A stretch of 31,876 nt of DNA, taken from the NCBI GenBank assembly GCA_013416795.1, contig RQSC01000630.1:244789-276664 (forward strand), in the 5' to 3' direction. Within the stretch, counting starts at the first letter, position 1, and every line of letters begins with the position of its first letter. The stretch is from Prasinococcaceae sp. CCMP 1430. Taxonomy: Eukaryota > Prasinodermophyta > Palmophyllophyceae > Prasinococcales > Prasinococcaceae. A model generated the notes under the pieces. The model was not told the DNA's origin. It worked only from the letters and a program-made list of their open reading frames with translations, and did not search any database. Below, one piece after another: positions 4,489 through 29,413 of the stretch. Made by a program: the position numbers and the translations under genes.

Positions 4489-7400
4489 ATGGCGTCATCA
4501 GCGCGCTGGATCGGCGAGTGGGACATGAATGGCACGCTCGCTCCGCAGGGCATGCAGCGCGTCGGCGGCGGATTCCGCCCCCGGCCGAATTCGCCAGGGC
4601 GCGGCTCTCCGTCGTCGCCGGGCGCTGCTGCGGTGTCGCGCGCCACGCTGCGCGCGATCTCAGAGCCGCTGGAACCGTACAGTACGGAGGACCTTGATCT
4701 GCTCGCCGAGATCCTGCGGTCGGCCGAGGATCGCGCGCTGCGCGATGCTAAGCGCGGGCGGCGTGCCGTCGAAGTGACGCAGCTGCGCGTGCTGCAGGCG
4801 TACGAGGCGGTGCTCCGCGCTGTCGGAATCGACGCGCAGGAGGACGAGTACTTCTACAGACCTGTGCTCCAGATGTGCCTCGACCCGGAGCCAGACTGGT
4901 GGCGAAAATTTGATGCCCTGTGCCGCGACAACGCCGATAAGGCCGCGTGGCTGGAGCGCGCTCGTGCCCTCGGCGCCTCGCCGGCGCCGTCGGCAGCGAT
5001 TGAGACGCAGACGCAGACGCCGCCTGTCCAGGACGTTCCGCCACCGCTGCCCCAGAGGGATGCACTGACCGAGACGCAGGCGTACGCACTTTTCAAGCTG
5101 TTGTCGATGGCCTTCCACGGCTGGGCGCAGCAGGCATCGTCGGCCAGCGCCGTGGCCGCAGCGCGGCGTCGCGCCGTTGAGAATTGGATGGTGGCTGTGT
5201 CGTTCTGGGAGTGCCGGGCGAGCGCCAATGCGTTGCGTCGCTGGCGTCGGCGCGGGGATGCCATGCGGGGCGTCGCCGAGGCGTTCGGTGCCGGTCGGTC
5301 GCGGCGGACCAGGTTCAGGCAGTGGAGATCGGCCGCGCGCAGCAGCTGTGACGGGCGCAAGCGCGGGCAGGCGCGCGCCATCGCCATGTGGCGCGGGAAT
5401 GCGCTGGGTGCGGCGTTGCGGCGCTGGCGGCAGGGCGCAGACGACGACCGCGCATTCGCGCTACGCTGCATGGCCTCGTGCGCAGACACGCGCACGCGCA
5501 TGTGCATGCGCGGATGGGCTAGCGTGGCGCACAAGCTGGCGCTCACGGAAGCGTGCGGGCGCGAGGCCGAATACCTGGCCGAGCGCGGGATGAAGACGCG
5601 CACCTACATGCGCTGGCGGGCCGCTTACAATGAGCGTGTGCGCCGCCGCACGCAGATGGGTAGGGCTGTCGCCGCCTGCCGCTTGCGCACGCTCGTGGCC
5701 GCCCTCAACACTTGGAGGCACCGGGCCACCACCCTGATCCACTACCGCGAGTCGGTGCAGCTCAGTCTCGCCAACATCAGACTGAATCGCGAGCGCGCGG
5801 CGCTCGCGCGGTGGGTTGAATTTGCGCACGAGCGGGCTGCAGTCAAGACAAAGACTGCAATGGCGGTCGCCAAGATGCAGTTTTCGCTGGCGGCGCGCGC
5901 GACCGCCCGCTGGACCGCGTACGTGCAGGAGACAATCAAGCAGCGCGTGAGGCTTGAGCGCTGCACGCGGATCCTCCAGTGTGGCATCGGACGCAGAGCG
6001 ATGAACCAATGGAAGGGGATTGCCCTCGAGCACGCGCGACTGAGGCGCATCGCTGGCTATGCTCTCAAGCGGACGCAGCAGCGGCAGGTGTCAGCCGCTT
6101 TCGAGCGTTGGTGTGTGCGCGCTGCTGAAATCGCAGATGAGCGCGAGGCAGCAGGCAAGGCGGCGCGCTATTGGCTCAACCGCACGGTTGGCAGCGCGTT
6201 CGACTCCTGGTACGAGAAGACGCAGGACTTTAAGGCCCAGCGTCAGCAATTGCGCAAGGCTGTGGCGTGGTTCACCACGCGTGCGTCGGCTGTTGCGTTC
6301 CAGACGTGGATGATCCGCGTTGAGGAGGCCTCCGCGCAGCGCGATGCGCTGACATTGGCCGTGCGCTGGTGGATCAGTCGCTCGGTCGGCGCGGCATTTG
6401 AATGCTGGGTTGAGAAGACCACGAGCATGGCACACGCGCGTGAGTTGGCCAACAGGTCGCTCCTGCGTTTGCTCAATGCAACCAAGGCCGCCGCCTTCGC
6501 TTCCTGGAGCGCCAACGCGAAGTCCTTCAGGCACGAGCGGGAGCTGCTACACAAGGCGGCGGCGCTCTGGCGCAACGTCGAGCTGCGCAAGGGATTTGCA
6601 GGCTGGGTGGCAACCGTGGCGGCGATGCGAGCTGCGGAGGCTGCCCTCTTGCGCGTGGCCAAGAATATGCTGCACCGGCAGCTGTCGAGCGCTTTCGAGG
6701 CATGGATTGCTTTTACCGCCGAGCGGCAGCGCAAGGCAGTGCTGGTCGCCAAGGCGGTGGGCTGCTTCACGCGGGGTGCTATCTCGCGCGCGCTTAACAC
6801 ATGGATCGAAGTCGTTGCGGAGGCCAAAGACGAGAATGACAAAATGGCACGCGCTCTCGTGTACTTCCGGGGGCGTGCTGAGCAGCTCGCTTTTCTTCAG
6901 TGGCAGGAGAACGCCTCGAGGCTCGCTTACCAGCGCGAGGCCCTCGAGGGGGCCATAAGGCGTCTGAACATGCGCGCACAGGCCGCTGTGATGGCGCGAT
7001 GGGTCGACTACGTCGTTGAGGTCGAGGAGATGCGCATGCTGGGGGAGCGTGCCGCGCGCTACTTCCGCAACAGCACTCTCGGGGCGGCCTGGCGACGCTG
7101 GCTGGCCTATGTTGAGGAGCTTGAGGAGGCCCGCGCGTTGGTCCAGCGCGCGGCGTCCTTCTGGATCAACCGCGCCCTGCTCGGGGCTTGGTCACGCTGG
7201 ATGGACTTCGCTGTTGAGTCCGTCGACATGCGCTCCAAGCTGCGCGTTGCCGTGCAACGCTTTGCCCACGCCAAGTTGGCGGCGGCGTTGCTCTCGTGGC
7301 GCGAATGGGTGCCCGCGAACAAGGAGAAGGTGCGCAAGGTCAGCATGGCAGCTGCATTTATGACCAAGCGGAGCATGGTCGCTTCGTTCGCAGCGTGGAA

Positions 7401-10400
7401 GCGCGTGTACGAGGCGCACAAGCGAGCTGTGAATTTCTTCGTTCATAGCGCGATGTTCCGCTCATTCCTGCAGTGGCGCGAGGGTGCGCTCTACCAGAAG
7501 GAGACCTTCCACAAGCTCCAGCAGGCTGCTGCGCGCATGATGAAGCGTCAGCTCAGCGCCGCATTCACAACGCTGAAACAGCACGTGGATGACATGCGGA
7601 AGGCGCGCCAAGCGATGATCTGGTTCGCGAACTTAGCATTGGCGAAGGCATTCAAGCGCTGGTGTGATTACGCCGTGGAGGTGCAGGTGGCGCGCGATCA
7701 AGCCGAGAAGGCGATGCGGCTGTGGATGAACACATCGACACGGCAGGCATTTGCACGCTGGGAGGAGTTTGCGGTCGAGTCAGCCGAGCTCCGCGCAAAG
7801 ATGCTGTACCTCGTGAAGCGCTTCTCCATGCGCGCCGCCGCCGCGGCGCTCTCGAGATGGCTCGACTTTGCGGTCGAGTCGGCGGCCATGCGCGACGCTG
7901 TGCGGCAGGCCGTAGCGCACTGGGTGAAGAAGGAGCTCGTTGTTGCATTCGAGCGCTGGTGCAACTTCGTGGTTGCGCAGCAGGAGGATGCCGAAAAGAT
8001 GGGCAAAGCACTGCGTCGCTTGCGCAACCGTCAGCTCACGGTGGCGTGGGAGCGCTGGACAGACGCTGTGGAGGAGATCTTCGACATGCGCGCCAAGCTT
8101 GAGAAAGCGCTTCGCCGCTTCGCCAACGCCGCGGTGTATGCTGCGTACAACGCGTGGGCTACCCTCGTTGAGACGAGGATTCGCCAGCGCGCTGCCGTGC
8201 GCAAGTCCCTTGGGCGCGTCATGAACCGCGAGAAGGCGGCAGCGATGGTACAGTGGCTGTTCTTCCTTGAGCGCAGGCGCGCGCGCTACGCGGCGGAGGA
8301 TCACTACCGCGCGCACCTTGCGAAGGCTATGCTGAGGTCGTTCGCGCACAGCGCCAACATCGCCAATCTCGCACGCAAGGGCATGAGGCGCTTGCTGAAC
8401 AGGCAGCTGTCCGGGGCCTGGGCAGTATGGACAGGGTACATGCAGTACTTGCACGAGCAGCAGGAGCAGGCGCTGTCCATGCAGGGCCGCGTGATCGCGC
8501 GTATGAGGAATGCCGCGCTCGCCGGGGCCTTCAACAAGCTGCGCGAGCACGCGCGGCAGTCGGGGGGAGCCAGGCGTATCCTGCACCGCATCGTCAACCG
8601 CAGGGCACTCGCTGCGCTCAACGGATGGTGCGCGTACGTCGCACGGATAGCGGGCGTGCGCTCGATGCTGTCGCGCATACTCGGTCGCATGGAGGCAACA
8701 TACCTCGAGGCCTGGGCCGAGTACGCCGCTGAAGGCACGCTCGCCCTCCGCCTGGCTGGTGTCGCGCGCGAGGGTGGGCGGAAGGGCACGCTCAAGCGCG
8801 AGTCGAGGCGGTTCGTCGGCCTGCTGCGCGTATGCGGCACGCGGGGCGCCAGGGCCGTGAAGGGCTGGAATCAGTGGCAGCGCGCGATGGCCCTCCGCAA
8901 GCAGGAGCGCCTGCTGAGCAAGATTGCATACGACAACTTGTACGGCAGTATTGCCGGGAAGGCATTCGCTGCGATGAGGCGCGGAGTCGTGGAGGGCAGG
9001 AAGGAGCGCAGTGCTGACGACGTGTGGTCGAAACTGCTGGCGCGCAAGACCCTGCGAGCGTGGCAGGTGCACCATCGCCGGCAGGCGGTGAAGACCAAGG
9101 CCTCAATGAAGGCCTTCGTACACTGGGCAAAGGGGGCTGCGGGTGTCGCGCTCACGCTCTGGCGTGATTGGGCGCGCGAGCGACGGCACGCGCGCTTCGT
9201 GAACACCGCAGCGCTGGTGGCATACGCCGACATGTTGCGCCGCAAAGCGCTCATCTCGTGGGCCGATGCGGTGGTGCAGCTACGCGAGTGGCGCGTATTC
9301 GTCGATGCGTACGACGCACGCATGCTCGTACTGCGCACCGCACGCGTGCTGCAACAGTGGCGCTCGGTGGCGGCAGACCTTGCGGAGCTGCGCCGCGAGG
9401 TGAACGACTTCCATGCGCGCTCGGTGGCCAACCGAATGTCCGAGTCCATGCGGCAGTGGCTACTGCTCGCTCGCACGCGCCGCGTGCAGCGCTCGGGCGT
9501 CACAGGCATGATCTTCGGCCGCTATCAGGCACAGGCTTTCATCGGCTGGTCGGACGTCGCGAGCGAGCTAAAGCGTGAGCGCCGCGCGCGTCACCTCGCG
9601 GCCACCTACTTCGTTGGCAAGGTCAGCCGCGAGGTGTTGATCGCCTGGCGTCGCGAAGCCAGCACCGCGCGCAAGCACGAGCGCATCATGCTCAAGGTCG
9701 CTGCCAGGATGCGCACTAAGGCGCTGGCATCGTCCTTTGCCGGCTGGTCGGAGACTGCGACCCTTCTCATCAAGCAGCGCGAGGCAGCGCACCGTGTGCT
9801 TGGCCGCGTGATGAATCGTACGCTCGGGATGGCCTGGCGCAGGTGGCGCGAGAACGTTGCGGAGCTGGCGCACATGCGCACTTGCCTCAGTGCCGCTGTG
9901 TCCATGATGCGCAAACGCAAGCTCGCGCAAGGATGGAACACTTGGAAGGCGTACTACGCGTATGAGACCTACCTGAGGGGAAAGCTCGCGAAGCACTTCG
10001 CGGCGAGATTCAAGCGCGACAAGGAGGCCTTCTTCATCGAGTGGCGCACGGTTGCGCAGTACGAGATCGAGGTGCGCGAGAAACTGTCCAGGTACGTCGG
10101 GCGCATCATGCACGGTGCCATGGCCGGCGCGTGGGCCACTTGGAAGGGCTGGTGGCAATCTTCGAAGCAACTCAAGCGTGCGGCGCGTTATCTGCGCAAT
10201 GCGGCGCTCGGCAAGGCGTGGCGCTCGTGGGCGCAGTACTACTTGCTCTGCAAGGTCGGCCGCGCGGTCTCGCAATACTCGCGCAACCTTCTCTACAAGA
10301 GCATGCAGAAGCTCAAGACCAACGCGCAGGAGGAGCGCAAGAAGCGCAGGCAGAACAGCGCAGCGCTCCTCTTCGCCTCGGGGATGGTGTGCAGCCGCCA

Positions 10401-11682
10401 ATTCATGATCTGGCGCCGAGCCGCACAGGTCCTGCCGGTGGTGCGCCGTCTCCGCGCCCGCGTGCTCAACCGTGTGGCGCACGCCTGCTTGGTCGGGTGG
10501 GCTGGGCACGCCGCGCACAAGGTCCATCTGCGAGAGGCCGGCCAGCGACTGCAAGCCTCGCTGGGACTCGACACCATGGGGCGCCTGTACGCCCTGTGGC
10601 GAACCCTGTACCGCGCGCGCTGCTACATGGGCGAATACAACGCCACGCGCGCGTTCCACGCGTGGCGTCGCGAGGCCTACGCCGCGTCCGCGCGCCGCAT
10701 GCGCCACAACGCGATCCTCGCCGAGATGTTGATGGGCACCACACGCCGCGTTTTCATCGGCTGGTTCGCGCTCATGATCGAACTGCGCGAGGCGCGGGCG
10801 CTCTTCCAGGAGAAGCAGCGACGCCTCAAGGCCGCCGTGCGTTACGGCGACCTCATGGCGCGCCGTCGCCGCTTCCAGACCATGCTGCTCCAATTCCGCG
10901 CGTGGCAGCAGATTACGAAGGCGCTCAGGCTTTTCGCCGTGCTAGCGGACGACCACGCTATTCGCGCGATGCGCGGATGGCGCAAGGAGGCGCGCGGCCT
11001 CGCGCTCGACCGCGAATTCCAGGAGGTCGCGCGCCGCCACGATGCGCGCCGCGCGGGCCGCGTGGTGTTGCGCGAGTGGCTGGACGCATGCGGCAAGATG
11101 GACCCCGCGCAGGAGGCGAGGCTCAAGTACGCACTGTCTGAGATGAGCGCGAATAGGCTCTTCAGTGTACTCGCACAGTGGAGTGGCTACGTGACGCTTT
11201 GCCGCAAGCGCCGCAAGGCGCTCAAGAATGCCTTCGCCGTCGTGATGGAGGCCGATGAGGACAATCTCGGCAGGAAGTGCCTTCGCGCTTGGCACCGCAC
11301 GGCCGCGCTCAGCACCCTGAGCTTCGAGGAAGAGGACGCACCCGCGAACGACTACATGTCGCCGATGCTCGACAGGCGCACGCGCGCCATGTACGGCGAC
11401 CGCGCGGGGGCCTTCTGGCGCGAGCGCCGATTGGCGGACGCGCTGCAGGCGTGGTCCTCGTACACCTCGGCGATGAACATTGACGCGAGCGAGGCCGTGT
11501 CAATGGCCATCAGCCGCCACAACGCCGAGGCGAGATCGGGCGCGTCGGGCCGGTCGTCCTACTCCTTGCACTCGCGTTTCGACACTCCGGTGGGCGCCGG
11601 CGCCGACTCGTCGCGCAGCAAGCTTCGCCTCCGGGACATGTCCATGAGCGTCGGGAGCGAGCGCTTCTACAGGTACGGGTAG
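4489..11682 (+). CDS. Giant Sfi1-repeat centrin-binding-type protein, 2397 residues, single exon
   Basis: One uninterrupted frame of 7.2 kb. Residues about 57-155 form a non-repeated helical N-terminal region (YSTEDLDLLAEILRSAEDRA ... DPEPDWWRKFDAL). From about residue 210 to 2322 the protein is an array of roughly 65 units of the Sfi1 type. Each is one helical segment centred on an (A/S)(F/W/L)xxW anchor, often preceded by a basic NR or KR and followed by a charged stretch with E..R. Units 11 to 33 (anchor Trp at residues 541 to 1256) are spaced 33 residues apart, with two shorter steps. In yeast and animals each such repeat binds one centrin along a long helix at the spindle pole body or centrosome; here centrin binding and a basal-body or fibre location are inferred. 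Yeast and human Sfi1 have about a third as many repeats. The C-terminal 75 residues are Ser/Gly/Arg-rich and non-repeated. ATG 4489 is the first in frame; a GTG nine codons earlier is in frame but is not a usual eukaryotic start. Confidence 0.9.
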   Translation: MASSARWIGEWDMNGTLAPQGMQRVGGGFRPRPNSPGRGSPSSPGAAAVSRATLRAISEPLEPYSTEDLDLLAEILRSAEDRALRDAKRGRRAVEVTQLRVLQAYEAVLRAVGIDAQEDEYFYRPVLQMCLDPEPDWWRKFDALCRDNADKAAWLERARALGASPAPSAAIETQTQTPPVQDVPPPLPQRDALTETQAYALFKLLSMAFHGWAQQASSASAVAAARRRAVENWMVAVSFWECRASANALRRWRRRGDAMRGVAEAFGAGRSRRTRFRQWRSAARSSCDGRKRGQARAIAMWRGNALGAALRRWRQGADDDRAFALRCMASCADTRTRMCMRGWASVAHKLALTEACGREAEYLAERGMKTRTYMRWRAAYNERVRRRTQMGRAVAACRLRTLVAALNTWRHRATTLIHYRESVQLSLANIRLNRERAALARWVEFAHERAAVKTKTAMAVAKMQFSLAARATARWTAYVQETIKQRVRLERCTRILQCGIGRRAMNQWKGIALEHARLRRIAGYALKRTQQRQVSAAFERWCVRAAEIADEREAAGKAARYWLNRTVGSAFDSWYEKTQDFKAQRQQLRKAVAWFTTRASAVAFQTWMIRVEEASAQRDALTLAVRWWISRSVGAAFECWVEKTTSMAHARELANRSLLRLLNATKAAAFASWSANAKSFRHERELLHKAAALWRNVELRKGFAGWVATVAAMRAAEAALLRVAKNMLHRQLSSAFEAWIAFTAERQRKAVLVAKAVGCFTRGAISRALNTWIEVVAEAKDENDKMARALVYFRGRAEQLAFLQWQENASRLAYQREALEGAIRRLNMRAQAAVMARWVDYVVEVEEMRMLGERAARYFRNSTLGAAWRRWLAYVEELEEARALVQRAASFWINRALLGAWSRWMDFAVESVDMRSKLRVAVQRFAHAKLAAALLSWREWVPANKEKVRKVSMAAAFMTKRSMVASFAAWKRVYEAHKRAVNFFVHSAMFRSFLQWREGALYQKETFHKLQQAAARMMKRQLSAAFTTLKQHVDDMRKARQAMIWFANLALAKAFKRWCDYAVEVQVARDQAEKAMRLWMNTSTRQAFARWEEFAVESAELRAKMLYLVKRFSMRAAAAALSRWLDFAVESAAMRDAVRQAVAHWVKKELVVAFERWCNFVVAQQEDAEKMGKALRRLRNRQLTVAWERWTDAVEEIFDMRAKLEKALRRFANAAVYAAYNAWATLVETRIRQRAAVRKSLGRVMNREKAAAMVQWLFFLERRRARYAAEDHYRAHLAKAMLRSFAHSANIANLARKGMRRLLNRQLSGAWAVWTGYMQYLHEQQEQALSMQGRVIARMRNAALAGAFNKLREHARQSGGARRILHRIVNRRALAALNGWCAYVARIAGVRSMLSRILGRMEATYLEAWAEYAAEGTLALRLAGVAREGGRKGTLKRESRRFVGLLRVCGTRGARAVKGWNQWQRAMALRKQERLLSKIAYDNLYGSIAGKAFAAMRRGVVEGRKERSADDVWSKLLARKTLRAWQVHHRRQAVKTKASMKAFVHWAKGAAGVALTLWRDWARERRHARFVNTAALVAYADMLRRKALISWADAVVQLREWRVFVDAYDARMLVLRTARVLQQWRSVAADLAELRREVNDFHARSVANRMSESMRQWLLLARTRRVQRSGVTGMIFGRYQAQAFIGWSDVASELKRERRARHLAATYFVGKVSREVLIAWRREASTARKHERIMLKVAARMRTKALASSFAGWSETATLLIKQREAAHRVLGRVMNRTLGMAWRRWRENVAELAHMRTCLSAAVSMMRKRKLAQGWNTWKAYYAYETYLRGKLAKHFAARFKRDKEAFFIEWRTVAQYEIEVREKLSRYVGRIMHGAMAGAWATWKGWWQSSKQLKRAARYLRNAALGKAWRSWAQYYLLCKVGRAVSQYSRNLLYKSMQKLKTNAQEERKKRRQNSAALLFASGMVCSRQFMIWRRAAQVLPVVRRLRARVLNRVAHACLVGWAGHAAHKVHLREAGQRLQASLGLDTMGRLYALWRTLYRARCYMGEYNATRAFHAWRREAYAASARRMRHNAILAEMLMGTTRRVFIGWFALMIELREARALFQEKQRRLKAAVRYGDLMARRRRFQTMLLQFRAWQQITKALRLFAVLADDHAIRAMRGWRKEARGLALDREFQEVARRHDARRAGRVVLREWLDACGKMDPAQEARLKYALSEMSANRLFSVLAQWSGYVTLCRKRRKALKNAFAVVMEADEDNLGRKCLRAWHRTAALSTLSFEEEDAPANDYMSPMLDRRTRAMYGDRAGAFWRERRLADALQAWSSYTSAMNIDASEAVSMAISRHNAEARSGASGRSSYSLHSRFDTPVGAGADSSRSKLRLRDMSMSVGSERFYRYG
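6109..8256 (+). repeat. In-register 99-base coding repeat block (33-residue Sfi1 units)
   Basis: From the Trp codon at 6109 to that at 8254 there are 22 steps between successive repeat anchors. Counting residues directly, 20 steps are exactly 33 residues, one is 26 and one is 29, totalling 715, which matches the nucleotide distance. Two of the anchors have Leu in place of Trp or otherwise vary, but the pitch holds. The DNA copies are well diverged, so this is an old protein repeat and not a recent DNA tandem array. Confidence 0.9.
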
Positions 11683-12320
11683 AATCCGTAGCACCCTCTA
11701 GGAGCCTTAACCTCAAAACATTTTACGTTTTCGCCATCGTTGGGGTCCGCGACGCCCCCAGGCAGAGTGCCCGTGCCGGCGCGAAAAAGAAAAACTCAAA
11801 AAGAAAAAGTCCACCTGAATTAGGGTCATTTCAAATACCCAAACCCGGTCAGCGTGCATGGACACTTTTCAAGTGATATCGCTGCGTCCTGTTTTAAAAG
11901 AAACGCAAACCCTCTTTTGCGAGCTGGTTTTGGAACTGGTGCGGCGTCCTCCCGCCGTGCGCGCGGCGGCCCACCATAGGGCGCGCGCGCGGCTCGGTGA
12001 GGGTCGGGGGACGAGCGGGGGCGCCGCTGCTGGGCGCGCACAAAGGGGGGAGGGGAGTGCGGAGGGAGGGCGAGAGGGAGGGGTGAGAGAGAGCCGGGGC
12101 GGGGGAAGCGCGGGCGCGGGCGCTGAGCGCGAGCGCGCGCGCGACAAGGTGCGCCCGCAGGCCTCAGGGGCGCGCCAAAGCGTGAAATATCGCTTGCGGC
12201 CGGCGGGGAGTGCGGGGTGGGCAAGGAGAGGGGAAGGGGGGGTGGGGGAAGGGGGGAAGAGAGGTTGGGTGAGGTTACGAAGGTCGTTGAGCAGGCGCAG
12301 CGGGAGCCGGTGTGCGCGTC
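11683..12320. other. Intergenic region between Sfi1 and CDP-DAG synthase genes
   Basis: The 5' part holds the Sfi1 3' end, with A-rich AAAAAGAAAAA tracts at about 11785-11812. An AT-rich pocket follows at about 11820-11935 with CACTTTT at 11863-11869. The rest is purine-rich, G-heavy DNA up to the next start codon. Frames on both strands here are low-complexity and I do not call a gene. Confidence 0.5.
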
Positions 12321-13790
12321 ATGGCGGCGACGCAGGTGCGGCGAAGGCGGAAGAACGAGTCGGATGGGGACTCCTCGGCGGGAGGCAGCGCAAACGAAGG
12401 CGGGGTCGGGCGGGGCGCCGGCGGCGAGGGCGCAGACAGTGCTGGCGATGGCGGCGGCAGCAAGCCTACGCTGCTGCTGTACTCCAGCTCGAAGTACAAG
12501 AGCTTGCGGACGCGCGTGGGCAGCGCCGTGGTCCTTGTGGTTTCGTTCGCGGGGGCCATTTACATGGGCCACGCATGGATCACGCTCTATGTCATCGGCC
12601 TGCAGACGGCAATCGTGCACGAGCTCTTCACAGTTGCGCGCCGGCGGCCACCGAAGCGCGGCAGCAAGCCAGCGCAGGCAGCGAGCGATGCACCGCCCAT
12701 GGTGGATGAGTTCAAGCACCTGCCCTGGTTCCGCACCCTGAACTGGTACTGGTATGTGTGTGTCATGTACTTCATGTACGGCAGTCTTGCGCGGATCCAT
12801 TTTGACATCCCGGATGTGCACGAGCTAGGCGAGTACGCATTCGTGCCTGGGGAGTACGCGTGGGCGCTGCACAGGCTCGTGCTGCACACGCTCCGGCACC
12901 TCTCGTTCTATAGCTACATGATGTACATAGCCGGGTGGGTATGGTTCGTGCTCATCCTGGAGAAGGGCACGTATATGTACCAATTCTCGCAGTTCGCGTG
13001 GACGCACATGATCCTCATCGTAGCCGTCGTCCAGACGTGCTTTCTCACTGCCAACATCTGGAGGGGGATGATATGGTTCCTGCTGCCGTGCTCGCTCGTC
13101 ATCGTAAACGACATCATGGCGTACTTCTCGGGCTTTTTCTTCGGCCGCACGCCACTGTTGAAGATCTCGCCCAAGAAGACGTGGGAGGGCTTCATCGGCG
13201 CTATCTTCTTCACCATGCTGTGGGGGTTCTTCGTGAGCCGTGCGATGGCGCAGTTCGAGTACATGACATGCCCTCAGAAGGAGGTCTCGCTGGCGCTCAA
13301 CGTGCCGCCGCTCACCTGCCCGACCAACCCGCTCTTCGTGGACGTCGAGTACCGTTTGCCCGAGATGCTAGTGGATGTGTACAAGTACTTGCATTTCCTG
13401 CCCTCATGGGCCAAGGTGGAAGTGGTGCACATCATGCCAGTTCAGCTGCACGGCTGCGTGCTGGCGGCGTTCGCGTCCATCGTGGCGCCCTTTGGTGGGT
13501 TCTTCGCCTCGGGCTTCAAGCGCGCCATGAAGGTGAAGGACTTCTCCGACTCAATCCCAGGTCACGGGGGCGTGACCGACCGCATGGACTGTCAGATGAT
13601 GATGGGACTGTTCGCATTTATCTACTGCCAAGCGTTCTGCATGGGTGGAGAGCTCAGTTTGCAAAACGTGGTAGCCTTGGTGATGTTGATGAGCAGAGAG
13701 GATCAAGTCGAGCTCTGGCGCAAGCTGGGGGAGGAGCTGTCCGCGCAGGGACTGCTCCAGGCAGGCACGGAGGCAGCAGGGGCACAGTGA
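12321..13790 (+). CDS. CDP-diacylglycerol synthase (phosphatidate cytidylyltransferase)
   Basis: One exon encodes 489 residues. The enzyme makes CDP-diacylglycerol from phosphatidate and CTP, the precursor of phosphatidylinositol, phosphatidylglycerol and cardiolipin, in the ER membrane. A soluble, charged, Gly-rich N-terminus (about 1-50) is followed by repeated hydrophobic segments. The family signature is intact near residues 396-423: SGFKRAMKVKDF followed by IPGHGGVTDRMD, with the conserved KD and HGG...DR residues for metal and CTP. SPKKTWEGFIG upstream is also a conserved block. The length and layout match the eukaryotic CDS1/CDS2 type, not the mitochondrial TAM41 type. The frame opens three codons earlier at a GTG, but ATG 12321 is the first real start. 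Its stop lies 114 bases from the stop of the converging polyprenol reductase-like gene, another ER lipid enzyme. Confidence 0.93.
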   Translation: MAATQVRRRRKNESDGDSSAGGSANEGGVGRGAGGEGADSAGDGGGSKPTLLLYSSSKYKSLRTRVGSAVVLVVSFAGAIYMGHAWITLYVIGLQTAIVHELFTVARRRPPKRGSKPAQAASDAPPMVDEFKHLPWFRTLNWYWYVCVMYFMYGSLARIHFDIPDVHELGEYAFVPGEYAWALHRLVLHTLRHLSFYSYMMYIAGWVWFVLILEKGTYMYQFSQFAWTHMILIVAVVQTCFLTANIWRGMIWFLLPCSLVIVNDIMAYFSGFFFGRTPLLKISPKKTWEGFIGAIFFTMLWGFFVSRAMAQFEYMTCPQKEVSLALNVPPLTCPTNPLFVDVEYRLPEMLVDVYKYLHFLPSWAKVEVVHIMPVQLHGCVLAAFASIVAPFGGFFASGFKRAMKVKDFSDSIPGHGGVTDRMDCQMMMGLFAFIYCQAFCMGGELSLQNVVALVMLMSREDQVELWRKLGEELSAQGLLQAGTEAAGAQ

Positions 13791-15294: not shown

Positions 15295-17620
15295 ATGCCG
15301 CGCTATGCGACGGTGGCGGCATGCACTCTCAACCAGTGGGCGATGGACTTCGCGGGCAACCTCGAGCGCACAATGCGGTCCGTAGCGCAGGCGAGAGAGG
15401 CGGGCGCAAGCTACAGGCTGGGGCCCGAGCTAGAGGTCTGCGGGTACTCGTGCGATGATCACTTCTACGAGGTGCGCGAGAGCGGGGGCGAGCCGGGGCG
15501 CGTGCAGCTGGACTCACGGCCACGCGCCATCCGCGGCTGCGCGTGTGCGTAGCGCAGACGCCCCAAAGCGCCGCTGACAGCAGGTGCGCTGCTGTGGTGG
15601 CTGCGGCGCGCTTGCGCGCGCCCGAATCGCGCAGGCCGATACGTGCACACATTCTTGGGAGTGTCTCGCTAAGCTCCTCTCGTCCGGCCTGACGGACGGT
15701 ATGCTGGTAGACGTTGGCCTGCCAGTCGAGCACCGCGGCGCGCGCTACAACTGCCGCGCCTTCCTGCTGGATGGGCGCATACTGCTCCTGCGCGCCAAGA
15801 TGTGGCTCGCCAACGACGGCAACTACCGCGAGCTGCGCTGGTTCTCAGCCTGGAAGCGATACGACGAGACCGAGCGGTATATGCTGCCGGAGTGCGTGCG
15901 CGCCGTATCTGGGCAGGCGCACGCGCCCATAGGTGATGCCACGCTGCAGCTGGCCGACACGAGCATGGGCACAGAGCTGTGTGAGGAGCTGTTCACGCCG
16001 CAGTCGCCGCACATCCGCATGGCGCTCCGCGGTGTGGAGGTGATGGCCAACGGCTCGGGCTCGCACCACCAGCTGCGCAAGCTCGACCAGAGGCTGGACC
16101 TGGTGAGGTCCGCCACGGCGAAGACGGGCGGCGTCTATCTGTACTCCAACTTGCGCGGCTGCGACGGCACGCGCATGTACTTCGACGGATGCTCGTGTGT
16201 GGTCGTCAACGGCGAAGTTGTCGCGCAGGGCCAGCAGTTCGCGCTGGAGGACGTAGAGACTGTGGTGGCCACGTGCGACCTGGACGCGGTCACGTCGTTC
16301 CGCGCAGCGACGTCCAGCTTCAGGGAGCAAGCGAGCGCCCAGCCAACGATATCTGCCGGCGCTGTCATTGACGCTACCCACTTTTCACTGTGTGCGCGCG
16401 GTCCGGGCCTGGCCGCGGGCCGGGTGCCACGCTTCCCTACGGAGCCTCGCGCCCCGCACTTCCACCGCTTCGAGGACGAGATAGCGCGTGGGCCTGCGTG
16501 CTGGCTGTGGGACTACCTGCGCAGAAGCGGGGCGAGCGGATTTCTGCTGCCGCTCAGCGGCGGCGCAGATAGCGCGGCGGTGGCAGCCATCGTCGCCGGC
16601 ATGTGTCAGCTGGTTGTTGAGGCCATCTCCGACGGCGACAAGGTTGTTCTGGATGACGCGCGGCGGATAGGAGGGTACGCGCTCGACGAGCGTCCAACCA
16701 GCGCCAAGGAGCTGGCGGGGAGACTGCTCACGACCATCTACATGGGGAGCTCCAATTCGAGTGCGGAGACGCGCGCGCTCGCAGCATCGCTCGCCGGCGA
16801 TATTGGCGCGAGCCACCACGCCCTGGAGATAGACACCGTCACTGCCGCGCTCGTCACCGTGTTCGAGGCCGTGTCCGGACGGCGGCCGCGCTTCCGCAGT
16901 CGCGGGGGCACCACTGCGGAGAACCTTGCATTGCAAAACATCCAGGCCCGCGCGCGCATGGTGCTGGCGTTCATGTGTGCACAGCTCATGCCATGGGTAT
17001 CCGGTCGGTCCGGCTTTCTCTTGGTGCTGGGCAGTGCGAACGTGGACGAGGGCCTGCGCGGCTACCTGACCAAGTACGACTGCAGCTCGGCTGACTTGAA
17101 TCCAATTGGCGGTGTCTGCAAGAACGACCTAAAGGCCTTCTTGAGGTGGTCGTCTTCCGCAGACTCGCTAACCGGTGGCACGTTGCCTTCCTTGGCAAGG
17201 ATCGTGACCGCACCGCCCACTGCAGAGCTCGAGCCGCGCGAGGACGGATACGTCCAGACAGACGAGCAGGACATGGGCATGTCTTACGAGGAGCTCGGTA
17301 TCTTCGGGCGGCTGCGCAAGATCGGGCGCTGCGGCCCTCTCTCCATGTTCCATGCCCTCCTGCCGAAGTGGGGTGACAGGCTCAACCCTGCACAGATTGC
17401 CGAGAAAGTCAAGTTTTTCTTCCGTATGTACTCCATCAATAGGCACAAGATGACCACCATCACGCCGGCGTACCATGCGGAGTCATACTCACCGGACGAC
17501 AACCGCTTCGACCTCCGCCAGTTTCTATACAACACGAGATGGCCGTGGCAGTTCGCGGCAGTTGACGAAGCTGCGCAGGCTGCCACCGACGTTGGCGCGG
17601 ACGGATCTCGTAGTCAGTAG
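15295..17620 (+). CDS. Glutamine-dependent NAD+ synthetase
   Basis: Two exons (15295-15471, 15635-17620) join in phase 0 over a 163-base intron into 720 residues, close to the 706 of the human enzyme. It makes NAD from nicotinic acid adenine dinucleotide, ATP and glutamine in the cytosol, the last step of de novo and Preiss-Handler synthesis. The N-terminal carbon-nitrogen hydrolase (glutaminase) domain has its full triad, Glu45 (in GPELEV), Lys114 (in LLLRAKM) and Cys175 (in TELCEELF), at positions that match the human numbering. The C-terminal synthetase domain has the PP-loop [11 protein letters not shown] near residue 366 and [28 protein letters not shown]-type substrate residues (written here as GSANVDEG and [13 protein letters not shown]). 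The splice falls just after YSCDDHFYE and continues into ADTCTHSWE, as in homologues. No internal frameshift or missing residue is seen. Confidence 0.95.
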
Positions 17621-17760: not shown

Positions 17761-20700
17761 TTAGATCGTGCCATATTTGCTCTCGTAGGCTGCCACCACG
17801 CGGTTGAGCTCCGAATGCTCCCACTTGAGGTCCTCGAGCTCTTCGAAGAACTCTGGTGTGAAAGCGCTCAGTTCGCTTCGCAGATCGTCGCGCTCTTTCG
17901 CCAAAGCGACATGGGCGTTCTTGAGCGAGGCGAGCTCTCGCGCTACGTCGGCGGTAGCAACCCCGGCGGACGCGGCGGCGACTTCTCGCTTCAGAGCGGC
18001 GCGTTCCGCCTCCAGCTCCACACACCGCGCCTGCAGGCGCTTCGCCTCATCGGCCGCATCCTTCGCCGCCGCGGAGAGCTGCGCGATCTCTTCGCGTCCT
18101 GCATCGCCGCTTTTCTGGCGTTCCGCAGCGGCGCGCTCGGCCGCCTTTGCAGCTCTCTTGGCCTCCGACAGATTCTTGCGCAGCCCCTCGGCGCGCTCTT
18201 CGAGCCGCGCAATGGCGTTTGCATGCTCCCGCTTGTCACCCTCACGCCCGCGCGCAGCCTTCTCGAGCTCGTCTCTGAGAGACTTGTTTTTTCCCCTGAG
18301 ATCCTTCGCAGCCTTCACAGCCTCTAAGTACGTCGACGCCGATGCTGCCCCGCGGCGCAGAGACTCGTTCTCAGCGCGCAGCTTCTCGATGATTGCCTTG
18401 AGGGCCTTGACAACGTCCTCGAGATTGTCGGCGGATGACGGCCGCGCCGCCGATTGCCCCGCCTTCCCCGCGCGGGCTTGAGTGGCGTCATCGAAGAGGA
18501 GGTCCATCCTGGTCCGCAGCGAGGCCCCTTGTGTCTCGGCCGCCTCTTTTTCGACCTTGACCTCGGCAAGTTCCATGTCGCGCGCGATGATTGCGGATCG
18601 AAGCTCATCGCGCTCCTTTTCGCCATCAGCAAGGGCTTGCGACACATCAGCCGCGCTCCCACTAGCGGAGCGTCGGGCAAGGTCGAGCTCAAATCGAAGC
18701 TTTTCGACCTCCGCTGCTCGCGCGCTGTCGCCCGCGGCCTCGGACGCTGCGCTTGACCTGGCCTCAGCAAGCTCGCTCTCCAGGCGCCTGCACTCGTCCT
18801 CCATGGACTTGAGCTTGGCGGCGTCGCGCGCGCGGATGGAGGCCTTGCTCTCGGCAGACCCTGTGCGACCAGTGCCCACCCGGAGAAGAAGGGCGTCGCG
18901 TTCGCGAGCGAGGCTTGCCGCGGTGCGCTCAAAGCGGTCGGCTTCCTCCTTTGCTTCCGCGGCCTCCTTGCGCGACGCGACCAGCTTCGCGCGCAGGGCT
19001 TCGATGCGCTTGGCGGCCTTTTTGCCCTCCTCCCATTGGGCAACGGCGGCGGCGGAGCGGGCCTCGGGCTGGCTCGAATCTTCTTGCAAGCTCGCGTTCG
19101 CTTCCTCCAGCGTCTTGACGCGCGCCTCAAGCTCACTGACCCTCGATCGCGCCACAGAGAGGGCCGTCTGGTCGGCTGCCCCACTCGGGCGGTCAGACGG
19201 GGCACGGACCTTCGAGCCGGCGGCGCGGGCCTTGCGGGCAGTCTCGCGCGCCTCTGCGAGTTCCGAGCGTAGCTGCGCGATCTCCACAGAAAGCCGCTGC
19301 TCGGCCTCCTTGGCCGCCTTCGAGGCCGAGGTCGCGTCTGCAAGCCGCCGCTGGGTCGTCTTGAGCTGCGATTGCGCGTGGGCGAGCTGGGCCAGCGTGT
19401 CCTCCGAGAACTGTTCGTTGCTCTTGCCGATGGTCACGTCGGCTTGCCTCTTCATCTCCTTAGCAAGCTTGTCCTTGAGATCACCAACGGCCACCTTGAG
19501 CTGCTCCAATTTGCGCTCCTTCGAACCGAGCTGCAGCTTGAGACGCTGCACAAGATTCTCCATGGCCCTACTTGGGCCACGCATCCGTTCAAGCTCACTC
19601 TCGCGGCGCATCGCCTCGAGCTCGGAGGCCTTCGCAGACAGCTGCTCGCGGAGCTCAGCCTCTGACGCCTCGTACTTGAGACGAAGCGCCTCGATCTTGC
19701 CATTCAGCACCTCCACCTGCGACTCGCGCTCGCCAAGGAGCGCGACGAGCTGGTCGTAGCCCTCCGACATGCTCGCCGCGGCCGGTGCGGCCCCTCGAGA
19801 GGCTGCAGGCTCCAGCAAGGCTTGGCGCATTTCGTCGACGTGCCGGGACTCCGCCTTGTGAAGCTCGTCCTGGAGGCGCAGCAGCTCTGCGCGATCGGCC
19901 TCCTGTGCCTCCAGCGATCGCTCCTGCGCAGTGCGCACCGCATTTCTGTACTCGTCGACCTGCTTCGACTTCTCCTCAAGCGCGGCGCGGAGGCGATCGA
20001 TGGTGCCCTGCGCGACTTGTGACACGCGCTCGAAGGCGGCGTCGGTGTCCTGTCCGGGTGCACTAGCAGCCGCACTCTGCGTGTGGCCAGCGGCGGATGA
20101 AGCCTCCATCCGCGTCAAGAGGCTGCGGAGCTCGAGCACCTGATCCTTTGCTTGATCGAGCTGCGCCTCAAGCTGCAAGCGCGCCTGCTCGGATGCTGCG
20201 AGCTGCCTCGCCAGCGCGCCGGTCTCACCCTGGAGCTTCATCAAGCGCTCCAGCTGGCCGAGCGTTTCAAGGCTCGATCCCTCCGCATCCGCCGCGACCG
20301 CAGGCGGCGAACCTGTGGGTACTGCTGCGGCGGCCGCCGCACCAGACTGCACATTGCCAACGACGGCGCCAGCTTGGGGAGGCGCGCCCGACGCGACCGC
20401 AGGAGTATCGGCGGTGCTCACGGCGCGATGCCCCTTTGCGTCAGCAAGCTCGGCCTGCGTCATCTCGAGCTCGATCGTGGCCCTAAGTGCAGTCTCCTCC
20501 GCTTCCGCCCGCTCTCGCTCCGCCGTGGCACGCCCAGCTGTGGCGGTCTCGAGTTGCGCGCGCACATCATCGAGGAGGCGACCCATGCGCCTAACCTCGA
20601 GCCGCGCATCGAGTTCCTCGCGGCGTTGCGCGCGGGTCGTGCCGTGCTCAAGCACACCGGACTCTGACGATACCATGCTCGCAGCGCTCAGCGTCGGCCG

Positions 20701-23700
20701 AAGTTCAGACGCGGGAGCGCGCACCGACGATGTCTGAAGCTGCAACTCAGCGGCCTGGCGAGCGTCTTCTGCAACGCGAACCTGCTCCGTCAGCTCGGAG
20801 ACCTTCTTCGACAGCTTCTGTGCATGAGTTTGCATCTCCTTCAGACCCTTTGCCCACGCTTGCGCTTTGCTGATCGACACGCTTCCGGTCATTGAAAGTT
20901 CCAGCCTCTGCTGTGTACGCCGGCGAGCTTCCTCTGCGCTGCGCGCGCTGGCGTTTGCACGCACGACTGAAGCCCGTGCCGCCTCCAGCTCCTGGCGCAG
21001 AAGGGCGTCTGCGGCAGCAATCCGATCCATGGCCGTAGTCGTCGCACTCGGCTGCGAACCCGTGGACGTGACGAGAGGCCTCTCCGCGCTGCCGCTGGCC
21101 ATGACTGCCTCCTCGCGCGCCAAGGAGAGGGTGCGATTCACTTGCTCCAGCTCATGCCTGAGCGCATCTGCCTCCTCTGGAGGCATCATGCGATCAAGGC
21201 TCTCCTCGAGCTCGCTCTGCTTCTCCACAGAGGTGCGCAACGCGGTCGACAGCTCCTTCACCTGGTCCTCGAGCTCGAGGATCTGCTCGCGCAGCTTCTC
21301 ACTCTTGTGCTCAGACGCCTCGACTTCCGACTGGAGCACGCGACACCTGCGCTCAGAGGCTGCTTCGGACATGCGGAGCGCCACGAGCTCCTCACTGGCA
21401 ATCGCCTGTCCGCTGCCGCCGCCGCCAGAGGAGCTCGCAAGCGCAGCCCGCAGCGCGACCACCTGGTCCTGTGCCTGGGCGCTCTCTTCCTGAGCGAGTG
21501 CCAGCGCCGACGACAGCCGCGTGGAGTCGCTGGCAATGCCTTCTTGCGCGGCCGCGTTGGTCACAAGTTCGCCCAGGGCTTCGCTAAGCTCCTTGTTCTG
21601 CTTCGCTGCGGCCAGGACGTCGTCCTGAAGCGCCTGGAGCTCTGACTTGGGGACCATGCCAGCAAGTAGCGACTCCAGCTGGCTGACCTGAAGCGCTGCG
21701 GAGGCAACCTTCTTCTCGACTGCCTCGTTCCGCTTGCGCATGGACTCGTCGAGCGATTCCATCCTCGACTTCGCTGCCGCCAAGGCACGCTGGGCCTTGC
21801 GCTCAGACGACTGCGCCGCCGCAAGAGCCTCGTTCAGCTTGGCGTTCTTGGCATGCGCGAGCATGAGCTGCTGCACGGCGTCGGACGCCGCCTTCTTCAA
21901 GGTGCTCTCGCCCCCGCCACCGCTGCCGCTGCCTTCGGCCACGGCTGAGTCTGCGAGGCGCTGGGCGGCCTCCGCGCGCTCGATAGCCGCCATTTGCGCA
22001 GCCTCGGCCGTCCGCACGCGTTCTTGCAGCGCAGTCTCGTCGCTCTTCCACTCCTTGCGGCGCCGCACGTACTCGGCGTAGAGCAGCCTCTGTTGATCGA
22101 GGACCCGCTCCCACGAGGCGCGGTACGCCTCGACCTCGCCAGTCATGGCCTCGAGCTGCTGCTCGCGACGGGCCAGCTCCGTGAGCGCCTCGACCAGCTG
22201 CACATTCGCCAAGTGCGCGTCGTGAGACATCTCCCCGGCGGTACCCCCGACGGCAATGCCACCAGTGCCAGCGCCCAACGCGCGCGCAAGCGCAGACTCG
22301 GGCACGGCAGGGCGCAGGGGTGTGCCACTGGCATTGCCAGCATCCTGAGCGCTCCCAGTGGCCTGAAGCGTCTCACGCAGACCCTGCAGCTCCCTGCGAA
22401 GCGCAGCGACGTCGCTGGCAAGAGCAGGGTCCGTATGCACAGTAGGCGCCATCTGCGTCGGTGCGGGCGTGTCGAGCTGCGCGAGCGCCATCTGGGGCGG
22501 GGGCCGCGACTCCAGTCCCTGGCGCAGAGCTTGCAGCACAGAAGACAGCTCATTGCCTACAGACTCCGCACTCGCCTCGCTCGGTTCGGCAGAAGGCGCG
22601 CCCGCCTGTCCGCCCGACGTCATGGCCTCCCGCTGAGTCGCTTCAATGTTTGCGAGCTTGTTCGCGATCGCATCGCGGAGGGCCGCGTTTTCCGCAGCAT
22701 ATGTATTGCGCTCGGCGACCGCGGCGCTGAGCTTCTCAAGAGCAGCCCCCTTCTCTGCCGTGGCGGTGGCGAGCGAGATCTCGAGCTCGCGCACACGCGC
22801 GGCGTTCTCACGGTCAGACTCATCGCGCGTGCCCCGCTCGGCGTCGCGAAGGCGGTCGCGGAGGATCTGGACCTGGCGCTCGAGCGTGGCAACGCTCAGA
22901 GACTGGCCCTCCTCCGTACCCTTGTGCTCGTGACGCAACGAGTCGGCGTACTCGTCGAGCAGTTGAAGCTGAGTGGCGCTGAGGCCCAGGCGGGCCGCTT
23001 CCATGCCCTGCCACTTGGCGCGGAATCGCAGCTCAACCTTCAACGCCCGCCGCTCGTCCTCGAGGTTCCCAACCTCCTTCTCCAACTGCTTGCAGAGCGC
23101 CCGGAGCTGCTCCAGCTCGACCTGCGCCGCAGTCCTGAACCCAGTGACGTCCAGGGCCTCCTCCTCTGGGAGGCCAGCGCGATGCCGCAGCATGCGATTC
23201 TCCTCGAGGAGATCTTCCATCTGTTCACCGCGCTGGTTGAGGGCTCGGACGGATGAGCTGAGCTCGTCTTCGACTGAGCGGAGCTGACGCTTGAGCATCT
23301 TGATATCACGCATCGCGTCGGACAGGCCGTAGACGCCACTCTCGTACGCCCCCAGCTGCGATTTTGCCTCCTCGGCGTCGCCCTGAGCAGCTGCAAGGGC
23401 CTCATCAAGCTGCACAAAGCGCTGCCTTTCGGCCTGGAGCTGGTCTTGCAGCCGCTGGACGTCAGCGCGCAGGGCGTTAAGCTCGCCATCCTGCTCGGCA
23501 AGAGCGTCGACGATCTCGGCCTTGGTGTCCTTCTCCAGCTGTTCATAGGCCTCGAGAAGGAGGACCTCCTTGTTGCGCGCATCGCGCAGCGCGGATGCGA
23601 GCGCGCTCGAGCCCTCCGCAGGAAGGGCACCGCTCGGTACGACGCCCGCGCCGGGCGCAGGGCGCAGCACTGCGGGTACAGGCTGGCCAGCCGCCTCCGC

Positions 23701-24976
23701 GACGGCTGAGGCGGCCGCGGCTGCCTGCCGCAGCGACTCGATTTCGCCAGACAGTTGCCCCTCGCGCGACTGCCACTCGGCGAACTGCGTCGAAAACTGC
23801 TCTTCGAAGGAGGACAGCAACGCGTCGCGCTCCTCTACGCTGCCCTCGAGCGAGCTCGCGTGCTCCTTGAGGGCCTCGATTTCACGCTCGAGCTCTGCCC
23901 TGGCAGCGGTGAACGACGCCGCAGTTTCCTCGGCCGTCCGCACCCGCGCATCCAGGGACACCGTCGCCTCGCTGAGCTGCACCACCTCCTCCGCACACTT
24001 GAGCTTTGCTGCGCGCAAGTCCGCGTTCGCCTTCTCGAGCATCTTATTCTCACGGAGCAGGCGGTCGAGCTCCCTGTTCTTGGCCTTGAGCTTGTTGCGA
24101 TCACCGCTCTTGCCCTGATCGGAGAGCTCGGCGCGCCGCTGCTCCGCCTGGACCATGGCGCGCATCTCCTCGAGGCGCGACGCTTTTTCGGCGACTTCGG
24201 CTTCGAGCTTGAGCGCGCGCTCGCGCTCCCGCTCGGCTTCCTCCTCTGCGGCGGCCAGTCGGCGGCCAATGCGCGCGTTGTCTTCGCGCGCCTGGTCAAG
24301 CTCGCCCTGCAGGCGAAGCTGCTCGAGATTAGTGGGGGCGTTCTGGAGTCCCTCGACTTCCTCTGTCAGGCGCTCGCGCTCGCGCTCGCTCTCGTCCAAC
24401 TGCTTGTACATCTCCTCAAGCTCGCGGTTGGCCTCGTTGAGCTGCTTAAGCGCGTCGTCGCTGCCCAGAGTCGACTGGGCGCTGGCGACATCGAGCTTCA
24501 ATTGCTTGACCTGCTGCTCCAGGTCCTCAGCGTCGTCCTGGGCCTGCTCGCTGAGCGCAGCTGAGAGCTCCGCGCTCAGCTGGAGCACGCGAGCGAGCTG
24601 CAGGAAGTCCTCAGGGCTGCGGCCGGCGATGGCGGCCTCGTCGAGCTGCGCTGCGAGCAGTGACTGCGTGGCAGTGATGAGCGACTCATTGCCCTCGTCG
24701 CCCTGCGATCAGCGCATACACATGGAAGATGCGCCGCGCCACGTCGCGTCAGCGGCCAGGCCCTGCATACGCACCGCGAGGTCGCTGCGCCGCGCAACCC
24801 GCTTGCGCGTGGGGGGGTGCACGCGAGGGGACGCGCAGCGGGCGGCGCGAGCGCATGGGTGGACAGGGGGTGGGATGGGCGGGGTTCCTCACCGTCTGGA
24901 TGGCCTCGACGTCGATGCCGTTGACGAGGTCCCAGTCCACGGCGTCCGCCTTGGCGCCGAACGTGACCTCTGCCAT
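17761..24976 (-). CDS. CEP290 orthologue, ciliary transition-zone coiled-coil protein
   Basis: Two exons on the minus strand: exon 1 (24976-24893) gives 28 residues, MAEVTFGAKADAVDWDLVNG onward. A 190-base intron (GTGAGG...GCAG, with CTGAC inside) follows, then one 6.9-kb exon (24702-17761), for about 2341 residues in total; human CEP290 has 2479. Nearly the whole protein is coiled coil. Several blocks identify CEP290 and not just any coiled coil: a VDWDLVN N-terminus; YESGVYGLSDAMRDIK near residue 480 followed by LLEENRMLRHRAGLPEE; DQQRLLYAEYVRRRKEWKS; MENLVQRLKLQLGSKERKL; AQWEEGKKAAKRIEALR near 1915; and FFEELEDLKWEHSELN near 2314. CEP290 bridges microtubule Y-links to the membrane at the ciliary transition zone and gates protein entry. 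The tail after the last block is shorter than in animals. It converges with the NAD synthetase gene at 140 bases. Confidence 0.93.
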
Positions 24977-25872: not shown

Positions 25873-26571
25873 TCACGCCTCCCCCATCTCGTCGTCGCTT
25901 TCGGCGGCGCTTGCTCCCCCCGCGCCCGCCTGCTCTGTTTCTGCTCGCGACTCCCGTGCGCCCTCGCGCTCGATGAAGCCATTCTTGCGCAGCGACCTCT
26001 CTACGGCGTGCTGCATGTCGTCTCGCAAGACGATGTCCCACCCGTGCGAGGACACACCCCTCGGCACGCACATACCAGGCGGTGCACCCGCCAGTGCCGC
26101 CGCCGCCGATGCGTCCGTGAGCAAGGCTCCCAGCGCGTCGCGCTCTGTGATTCGTCTGCGCACGATCTGCTCGCGCACTGTCGACGGCACAGACGCGTAC
26201 AGGTCCTCGTGCGGGCGTTTCTCTCCGGCGTGCGGGGCCTCGCCCGGTCCGTGGTCGGCGCTGGTCGCGGCCACGCTCGTGCTCGTGCTCGCGCCCGCCG
26301 GCCCGCCCGCGGACGTAGAGACCGCCCACGGGTTCGCGGGCCGCGGCTCGTACAGTGTCAGCTGCCTTGCCTCGGCGGCCTCGCGCGTGCGCTGCCTCTT
26401 TCGGATGTGCATCCGGTTGAGCTCATTGGCGAGGCCTGTGTCCACGTCCTGCTCGTCCGTTCGCGATGTCGACGCGAGCTGTGGCGTCGCATCCCGCGCC
26501 CCAGCGCCGGCGGAGGCGCCCAGTGGGCCAGCGCCATTCTCCATGCTTCTGTTGCGCGGCGCCCGCCCCAT
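25873..26571 (-). CDS. Unknown protein, likely nuclear; 5' end uncertain
   Basis: The frame ending at 25873 encodes at least 232 residues from the ATG at 26571. It contains a basic patch NRMHIRKRQRTREAAEAR, an Ala/Ser/Gly-rich linker, and a better structured C-terminal part: YASVPSTVREQIVRRRITERD, ALGALLTDASAAAALAG, GWDIVLRDDMQHAVERS and RKNGFIERE, ending in an acidic AAESDDEMGEA. The basic patch suggests a nuclear location signal. I do not recognise the family. The frame is open far upstream, and residues such as QSAKRHADGKLAEP just before the ATG look coding, so the true start may be in an upstream exon. One possibility is ATG 26896 spliced from a GTATCT donor to a GCAG at about 26657, but no CTGAC branch motif supports it. 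Treat 26571 as a minimum. Confidence 0.5.
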   Translation of the reverse strand: MGRAPRNRSMENGAGPLGASAGAGARDATPQLASTSRTDEQDVDTGLANELNRMHIRKRQRTREAAEARQLTLYEPRPANPWAVSTSAGGPAGASTSTSVAATSADHGPGEAPHAGEKRPHEDLYASVPSTVREQIVRRRITERDALGALLTDASAAAALAGAPPGMCVPRGVSSHGWDIVLRDDMQHAVERSLRKNGFIEREGARESRAETEQAGAGGASAAESDDEMGEA

Positions 26572-27255
26572 CGGAATCTCCGCGAGCACGCCCCCGTTCG
26601 GCCGCGCGGGCTCGGCGAGCTTGCCGTCCGCGTGACGCTTGGCTGATTGCGGCTGCTCGGCAGTCGCGCGGCGCGCGGCTGCCTGCTGCGCGCCGCGGCG
26701 CACCCCGCCGTGCCCGCGGGCCGCGGCGCGGCGCGGCGCGCGCCCCGTGTGACAGCGTAGCACCAGCGCCAGCCTTCCCTCCTTCTCTCTGCGTGGTGCC
26801 CGTGCGTGCACGCCTCGCCTTTGATGAAGCACGCGTACAAGATACGGGTCGCCCTGCACTTTTTGACAAATCTGTGGCCACGCCGTCTGAATGCATGCGC
26901 TCAGAATCTGCAGAAAGCTATTCGACCACTCGATCCGACTTTTTGCTCGGCATGGGCTTTGACCTGGGGGGACTCGAACGAACGTGACTACTGCTGCTGC
27001 GGCGGGCGGGCGCCACACTGTGCTCGGGGCGGCGGCGGGGCGCCTGGGCGGGGGCTGCTGCGTGAGGAGAAGGGAGGGGCGGGGACGGACGTGGGGGTCG
27101 ATCCGTCCCGGGGGGGGGGGGGGGGGGGGGGGGGAGGAGTGCCGGCTGCGCCCCCTCCCCCCCCCACCGCGCGCTGGCACGCACGCGCGACTGCGACCGG
27201 CGCCAGCGGGCGCGCGAGAAAATAAATATCAGACAGAGCTGGGGGGCCGGCGGGC
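26572..27255. promoter_or_regulatory. Divergent promoter region with AT-rich pocket
   Basis: The region separates the unknown minus gene from the coiled-coil plus gene. About 26820-26960 is clearly less GC-rich than its surroundings and holds CACTTTTT at 26857-26864, as in other upstream pockets of this window. A 25-base G run sits at 27110-27134. AAAATAAATAT at 27221-27231 lies about 25 bases before the coiled-coil ATG and could be a TATA-like element or part of the leader. The left 70-100 bases may be coding for the unknown minus gene. Confidence 0.4.
27110..27134 (+). repeat. Homopolymer of 25 G
   Basis: An unbroken run of G from 27110 to 27134, preceded by TCCC and followed by AGGAG, then a C-rich stretch at about 27160-27170. 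Its length is hard to sequence, so the exact count should not be trusted. It can form a G-quadruplex. Confidence 0.85.
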
Positions 27256-28077: not shown

Positions 28078-28237
28078 CAGCGCGGTGGCATACATAAGCG
28101 CCGGTCGTAGCTGCAGCCGCGCGCGCGTCTACTTGTACAGAGGGCAGTCATTTGGTCATCCGTTGATGTGTTCTCACTACGTCGCGATCGATGGGCGGCT
28201 GTGCCAGCCCGCTCGATCGCAGCAGGCTCTCGCCCGA

Positions 28238-29311: not shown

Positions 29312-29413
29312 CGCTGCCGCGGCGGCCGCGGCCGCCGCCGCTACCTGGTGGTGCGCGGCCGCCGCCGCCGCCGCGATGTCCCTGATGCACGACCGAACGC
29401 ACCGGGTGTCACC

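Follow-up and report, generated by a model that had tools for sequence, protein, structure and literature searches.

The window analysed here, a stretch of 31,876 nucleotides, raises the question of what kind of protein is specified by the very large open frame at 4489-11682 on its forward strand, which the first-pass annotation had described as a giant Sfi1-type protein with about 65 centrin-binding-like units. The frame comprises 2,397 codons, runs from an ATG at 4489 to a TAG ending at 11682 and has no internal stop, and the coordinates and length originally given for it are correct. An in-frame stop at 4435 closes the frame upstream, and the GC content by codon position (0.645/0.515/0.83) is uniform from end to end. 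Based on the open frame, the upstream stop and the even codon-position GC pattern, the interval is a genuine single-exon coding sequence, and we describe its product as a Sfi1-like repeat protein. Residue numbers of the tryptophan anchors mentioned below are counted from a GTG at 4462, nine codons before the ATG.

The repeat array was delimited by HMM and composition-controlled scoring and occupies positions 5059-11214 (+), with anchors from W221 to W2240. Distances between tryptophans form sharp peaks at 33 (42 pairs), 66 (36 pairs) and 99 residues (28 pairs). The strict motif (A/S)(F/W/L)xxW is found 36 times in the protein, compared with a mean of 3.4 and a maximum of 9 in shuffled sequences, and the looser motif [FWLMI]xxW is found 65 times, in part out of register (mean of 20.6 and maximum of 32 in shuffles). 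An HMM of the repeat built from the protein itself detected 61 stretches, and the same HMM did not exceed 4.5 bits in 20 shuffles. With a background model of the protein's own composition, 56 places scored above 4 bits; 48 of them were retained when each repeat was scored with a model built without it, compared with 0.67 places expected by chance per shuffled protein under the composition-controlled model. The array is far beyond chance and contains about 50 to 60 repeats. The long tryptophan-anchored array reported in the first-pass annotation is thereby borne out, with a period of 33 residues, while its figure of about 65 units is a mild overcount that only the looser motif reaches.

The longest in-register block consists of 20 consecutive 33-residue repeats without a single indel (W352 to W979; 5452-7431, +). 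Two further blocks contain seven repeats each, one from W1067 to W1265 (7597-8289, +) and the other from W1696 to W1894 (9484-10176, +), the latter including the top-scoring repeat, W1795. In the two main blocks the hydrophobicity spectrum peaks most strongly at 4.12 (33/8), 3.30 (33/10) and 3.66 (33/9), all harmonics of 33. Weaker HMM stretches extend beyond W2240 to residue 2337. The array is flanked by an N-terminal non-repeat region that contains proline (4645-5058, +) and by a short Ser/Arg-rich C-terminal tail, which is without repeats as read from the translation (11479-11682, +). The N-terminal region has no match in Pfam or the PDB and no paralogue in the genome, and AlphaFold predicts short helices for it at low confidence (pLDDT 49). 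A bacterioferritin hit of this region in the PDB (E = 0.12) was dismissed as chance.

The centrin-binding motif is characterized by a hydrophobic triad, W1-L4-L8. Sfi1 repeats have a 33-residue periodicity and the motif Ax7LLx3F/Lx2WK/R (PMC5112337), and human SFI1 is known to possess regular 10-residue gaps (PMC8622359). For comparison with this consensus, 53 anchors were picked on tryptophan spacing alone, and the other positions were then tested. Alanine occupies position -16 at 28 of the 53 anchors (background 0.18, P = 8e-9) and position -4 at 31 (P = 4e-11); F/L/W/M/Y is present at -3 in 46 (P = 4e-23) and a hydrophobic residue at -12 in 42 (P = 4e-13). The enrichment is weak for L/I/V/M/F at -7 (21/53, P = 0.009) and for K/R at +1 (17/53, P = 0.013), and there is none for L/I/V/M/F at -8, the first L of the LL pair (9/53, P = 0.92). 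Judged by these positions, the consensus is followed at most but not all of its sites. The minimal centrin motif [FLW]xxW[KR], which has been applied to the Plasmodium protein PfSlp (PMC10180636), is found 17 times (shuffles: mean 2.8, maximum 9).

A profile derived from the window protein alone was used to score the Sfi1 segments of solved centrin complexes. Scores above those of their shuffles were obtained for the 2K2I peptide of human SFI1 (P = 0.0016) and for the 2DOQ segment of yeast Sfi1p (P = 0.0036); as both segments are short, these scores support the Sfi1 reading and fall short of proof. The first-pass annotation had suggested a search with the Pfam Sfi1 family, PF08457, and had counted a lack of profile hits against its own reading. 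We found no match to PF08457 in the 2,397-residue protein at the curated cut-off of 22 bits. The search of the whole genome with PF08457 was also negative, which shows little, since control genomes gave no match either, and neither the whole protein nor the repeat profile retrieved a Sfi1 chain in sequence searches of the PDB. Non-fungal Sfi1 proteins have been described as having motifs in common, with no clear homology over the full sequence (PMC10180636, PMC9406199), and for this reason we do not regard the PF08457 miss as decisive. By motif and period, the window protein classifies as a Sfi1-repeat protein and not as a PF08457 member. The Sfi1-type assignment is thus supported by the 33-residue period, the positional consensus, the scarcity of proline and the resemblance to Sfi1 segments from human and yeast, with the Pfam family remaining silent.

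Among the described Sfi1 proteins, those of yeast and human (spindle pole body and centriole) share with the window protein the 33-residue repeats with A(-16), F/L(-3) and W(0), and their fragments match its profile. However, they have about 20-25 repeats compared with about 50-60 here, and the window protein differs from them in its lack of a PF08457 match, its weak K/R at +1 and the missing L at -8. As in TgSFI1 from Toxoplasma and PfSlp, the repeats are recognised by motif and there is no clear overall homology (PMC9406199, PMC10180636); F and W are also frequent at -3 in TgSFI1 (PMC9406199). TgSFI1 has fewer repeats, 32 in 3,903 residues, and in contrast to TgSFI1 and PfSlp, which carry long non-repeat extensions, the window protein is almost all repeat.

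Only five prolines are present in residues 200-2340 (2,140 residues), a scarcity that speaks for a continuous helix. Positions 0, -3, -4, -7, +4, +8 and +11 fall on one helical face and -16 and -12 on the opposite one, and this two-faced conservation would fit a centrin that grips the helix between its two lobes. The array is strongly basic (412 K+R versus 177 D+E). AlphaFold modelling of six of the seven repeats in the W1067 to W1265 block, with a self-alignment, gave an all-helical model with breaks at low confidence (mean pLDDT 47), which cannot decide for or against a single rod. On the combined evidence of motif, period, composition and gene content of the genome, the gene product is very probably a centrin-binding scaffold of the Sfi1 type. 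In such a scaffold each 33-residue repeat would be one stretch of continuous alpha-helix gripped by one centrin, with the centrin C-lobe on the W0/F-3/L-7 face and the N-lobe on the opposite A-16/hydrophobic-12 face. The rod would carry about 50 centrins in a row and, with 0.15 nm for each of 2,140 residues, would measure about 0.3 um; such rods would form a basal-body fibre, which could be a connector, a rhizoplast-like root or a centriole-lumen scaffold. The length or stiffness of the fibre may respond to calcium via the bound centrins; for Sfi1 fibres coated with centrin, a rise in calcium is believed to cause coiling and shortening (PMC6070942).

A different partner or a different fold could be proposed for the same array. 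Calmodulin and centrin are close relatives, a calmodulin gene (L006) is present in the genome, and the excess of basic residues would suit calmodulin equally, so that the repeats might bind calmodulin in the manner of IQ-repeat proteins such as ASPM and the myosin necks. However, not a single IQ motif (IQxxxRGxxxR) was found at any tested stringency in 2,406 residues, the period is 33 and not 20-25, and the arrangement W(0)/F,L(-3)/A(-16) is that of a centrin site, with the Sfi1 segments of centrin complexes scoring against it; we therefore consider a calmodulin scaffold very unlikely. The unit length is also close to the 34 residues of helical-hairpin solenoids of the HAT/TPR type, which serve as ordinary protein-interaction platforms, and such a fold would accommodate both the conserved W and A and the irregular helix breaks of the low-confidence model. 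It is nevertheless highly improbable, as no TPR, HAT or other Pfam repeat family was detected up to E = 10, proline is almost absent, no glycine turn is fixed, and the conserved positions are grouped on one face of one helix. Finally, long coiled-coil proteins are common at basal bodies, and a coiled-coil-like protein (P0002) is encoded nearby in the window, which brings to mind a generic two-stranded centrosomal rod without centrin sites. A protein of this kind is hardly credible here, given that the strongest spectral peaks are the harmonics of 33 with no heptad signal at 3.5 residues, and that the majority of the 94 tryptophans in the protein are in register.

The genome assembly comprises 24.5 Mb in 145 contigs, with a GC content of 66.7% in the DNA examined. 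The light-harvesting proteins it encodes belong to the green chlorophyll a/b type, which identifies the source, on sequence grounds, as a green alga and not a haptophyte; the suggestion of a haptonema made in the first-pass annotation is unsupported. The genome encodes SAS-6, radial spoke protein 3 (RSP3, E = 8.5e-92) and SF-assemblin, from which one would expect centrioles, striated flagellar-root fibres and a motile axoneme. One recognisable centrin gene (L005) was found, with two readable exons, and centrins are its closest relatives among solved structures. A genome search with this centrin revealed no second close centrin in exon-by-exon matches over the readable stretches, from which further ones could have escaped. 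The flagellar root to which the protein had been tentatively assigned fits this gene content of SAS-6, RSP3, SF-assemblin and centrin, while the location itself is inferred. As an aside on the light-harvesting proteins, the polyprotein-like, multi-domain LHCI chains of 9VFJ rank first among their PDB matches by summed score, while ordinary green LHCII scores higher per domain.

If the protein is a centrin scaffold, its main site of action could still be the centriole lumen or the mitotic pole, where it would take part in scaffolding or duplication like the Sfi1 proteins of human and yeast, instead of a flagellar-root fibre. This alternative differs in location only and has the centrin-scaffold mechanism in common with the leading reading. 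SFI1 is centrosomal in most eukaryotes (PMC8622359), and the single recognised centrin stands against the dozens of centrins in ciliates with contractile networks, such as the 36 lattice centrins of Paramecium (PMC5483020). On the other hand, the array exceeds that of yeast or human SFI1 two- to threefold in length, and the shorter Sfi1-repeat genes of the same genome could fill the centriolar or mitotic role. We regard this role as a serious contender with somewhat less than an even chance, and see the prospects of a root or connector fibre external to the centriole, as opposed to the inside of the centriole or the mitotic pole, as evenly balanced. A more specific proposal casts the protein as the scaffold that bears the load in a calcium-contractile flagellar root, a rhizoplast or nucleus-basal body connector, with some 50 copies of the single recognised centrin aligned on one rod. 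The contractile networks of ciliates have large centrin families, and by comparison the single centrin recognised here weakens a strongly contractile role; we consider this proposal possible and rather doubtful.

The scaffold reading places the window protein as an unusually long representative of known Sfi1-type scaffolds, giant arrays being already known in ciliates. Contractile protists reportedly make use of giant scaffolds of the Sfi1 type that offer a very large number of centrin sites (PMC12661445), and the infraciliary lattice of Paramecium and the myonemes of Spirostomum and others resemble the present case in their very long Sfi1-type arrays with many centrins (PMC12661445, PMC5483020). 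The giant ciliate proteins, however, belong to cortical contractile networks, with a large centrin family in Paramecium, whereas the window protein comes from a green alga with one recognised centrin. Green algal centrin fibres, such as the prasinophyte rhizoplast and the nucleus-basal body connectors of Chlamydomonas, offer a comparison within the same organism group and with the same expected partner. The contractile rhizoplast of a green flagellate was the original source of isolated centrin, and centrin fibres are said to involve Sfi1p in many cases (PMC6070942); in the open-licence literature we found no giant scaffold gene described for the green algal fibres. Should the contractile-root proposal hold, the protein would be the missing partner of the fibre type from which centrin was first isolated, and giant Sfi1 arrays would not be a ciliate speciality. 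With its small genome, one recognisable centrin, one very long array and few shorter paralogues, this alga would offer a simple setting for studying how the length and contraction of a fibre depend on the length of the array, free of the dozens of centrins that ciliates possess.

In addition to the window gene, the genome contains at least two and probably four further Sfi1-repeat genes, as suggested by repeat similarity. Several Sfi1-repeat genes per genome are also known in Tetrahymena, which has 13 (Sfr1-13; PMC5112337). The window gene has the longest array among the genes of this family, as far as they are readable. A second large array, with 21-23 anchors, is located at about C81:88796-90937 (locus C81:85500-95400) and is clearly similar to the window repeats (E = 4e-17 with a seven-repeat protein query; 23 anchors, on a partly masked contig). 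L/I/V/M/F at -7, weak in the window protein, is strong in this array (17/21), and F/L/W/M/Y is present at -3 in 21/21, a position that was part of the anchor choice. Part of the array is made up of near-identical higher-order units, with self-matches (79-91% over 33 residues) at offsets of 135, 138 and 220; after them, a 50-residue unit (DSPPRASVSPARRMGDAMAHLLQQF...) is present in three nearly identical copies. These duplications look younger than those of the window protein. Much of the contig upstream of the array is N. A piece of a Sfi1-repeat gene was identified in C109, and C51 and C76 are weaker candidates. At C51:84410-85198 (minus) a 660-residue frame carries some ten related repeats with frequent F or Y in place of W (AAFAGF, KAYRGY); they may represent a diverged Sfi1-like repeat or a related basic helical one. 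At C76:494500-498000 (minus), Sfi1-like W repeats occur in adjacent stretches in two different reading frames, so that this locus is probably an intron-containing further member.

The remaining genes of the window include a member of the CTP transferase family (CTP_transf_1; 12312-13790, +) and a NAD synthetase with a carbon-nitrogen hydrolase domain (15584-17620, +). A coiled-coil-rich open frame (17761-24588, -; 2,275 residues) has no Pfam family above its cut-off, the best being PUMA_CC with 16.8 bits versus 30.1, and could be another centrosomal or flagellar-base rod. It is followed by a frame with a weak match to the dynein light intermediate chain (25873-27180, -; 20.5 bits versus a cut-off of 19.7) and by an ABC-transporter ATPase frame (28085-30214, +).
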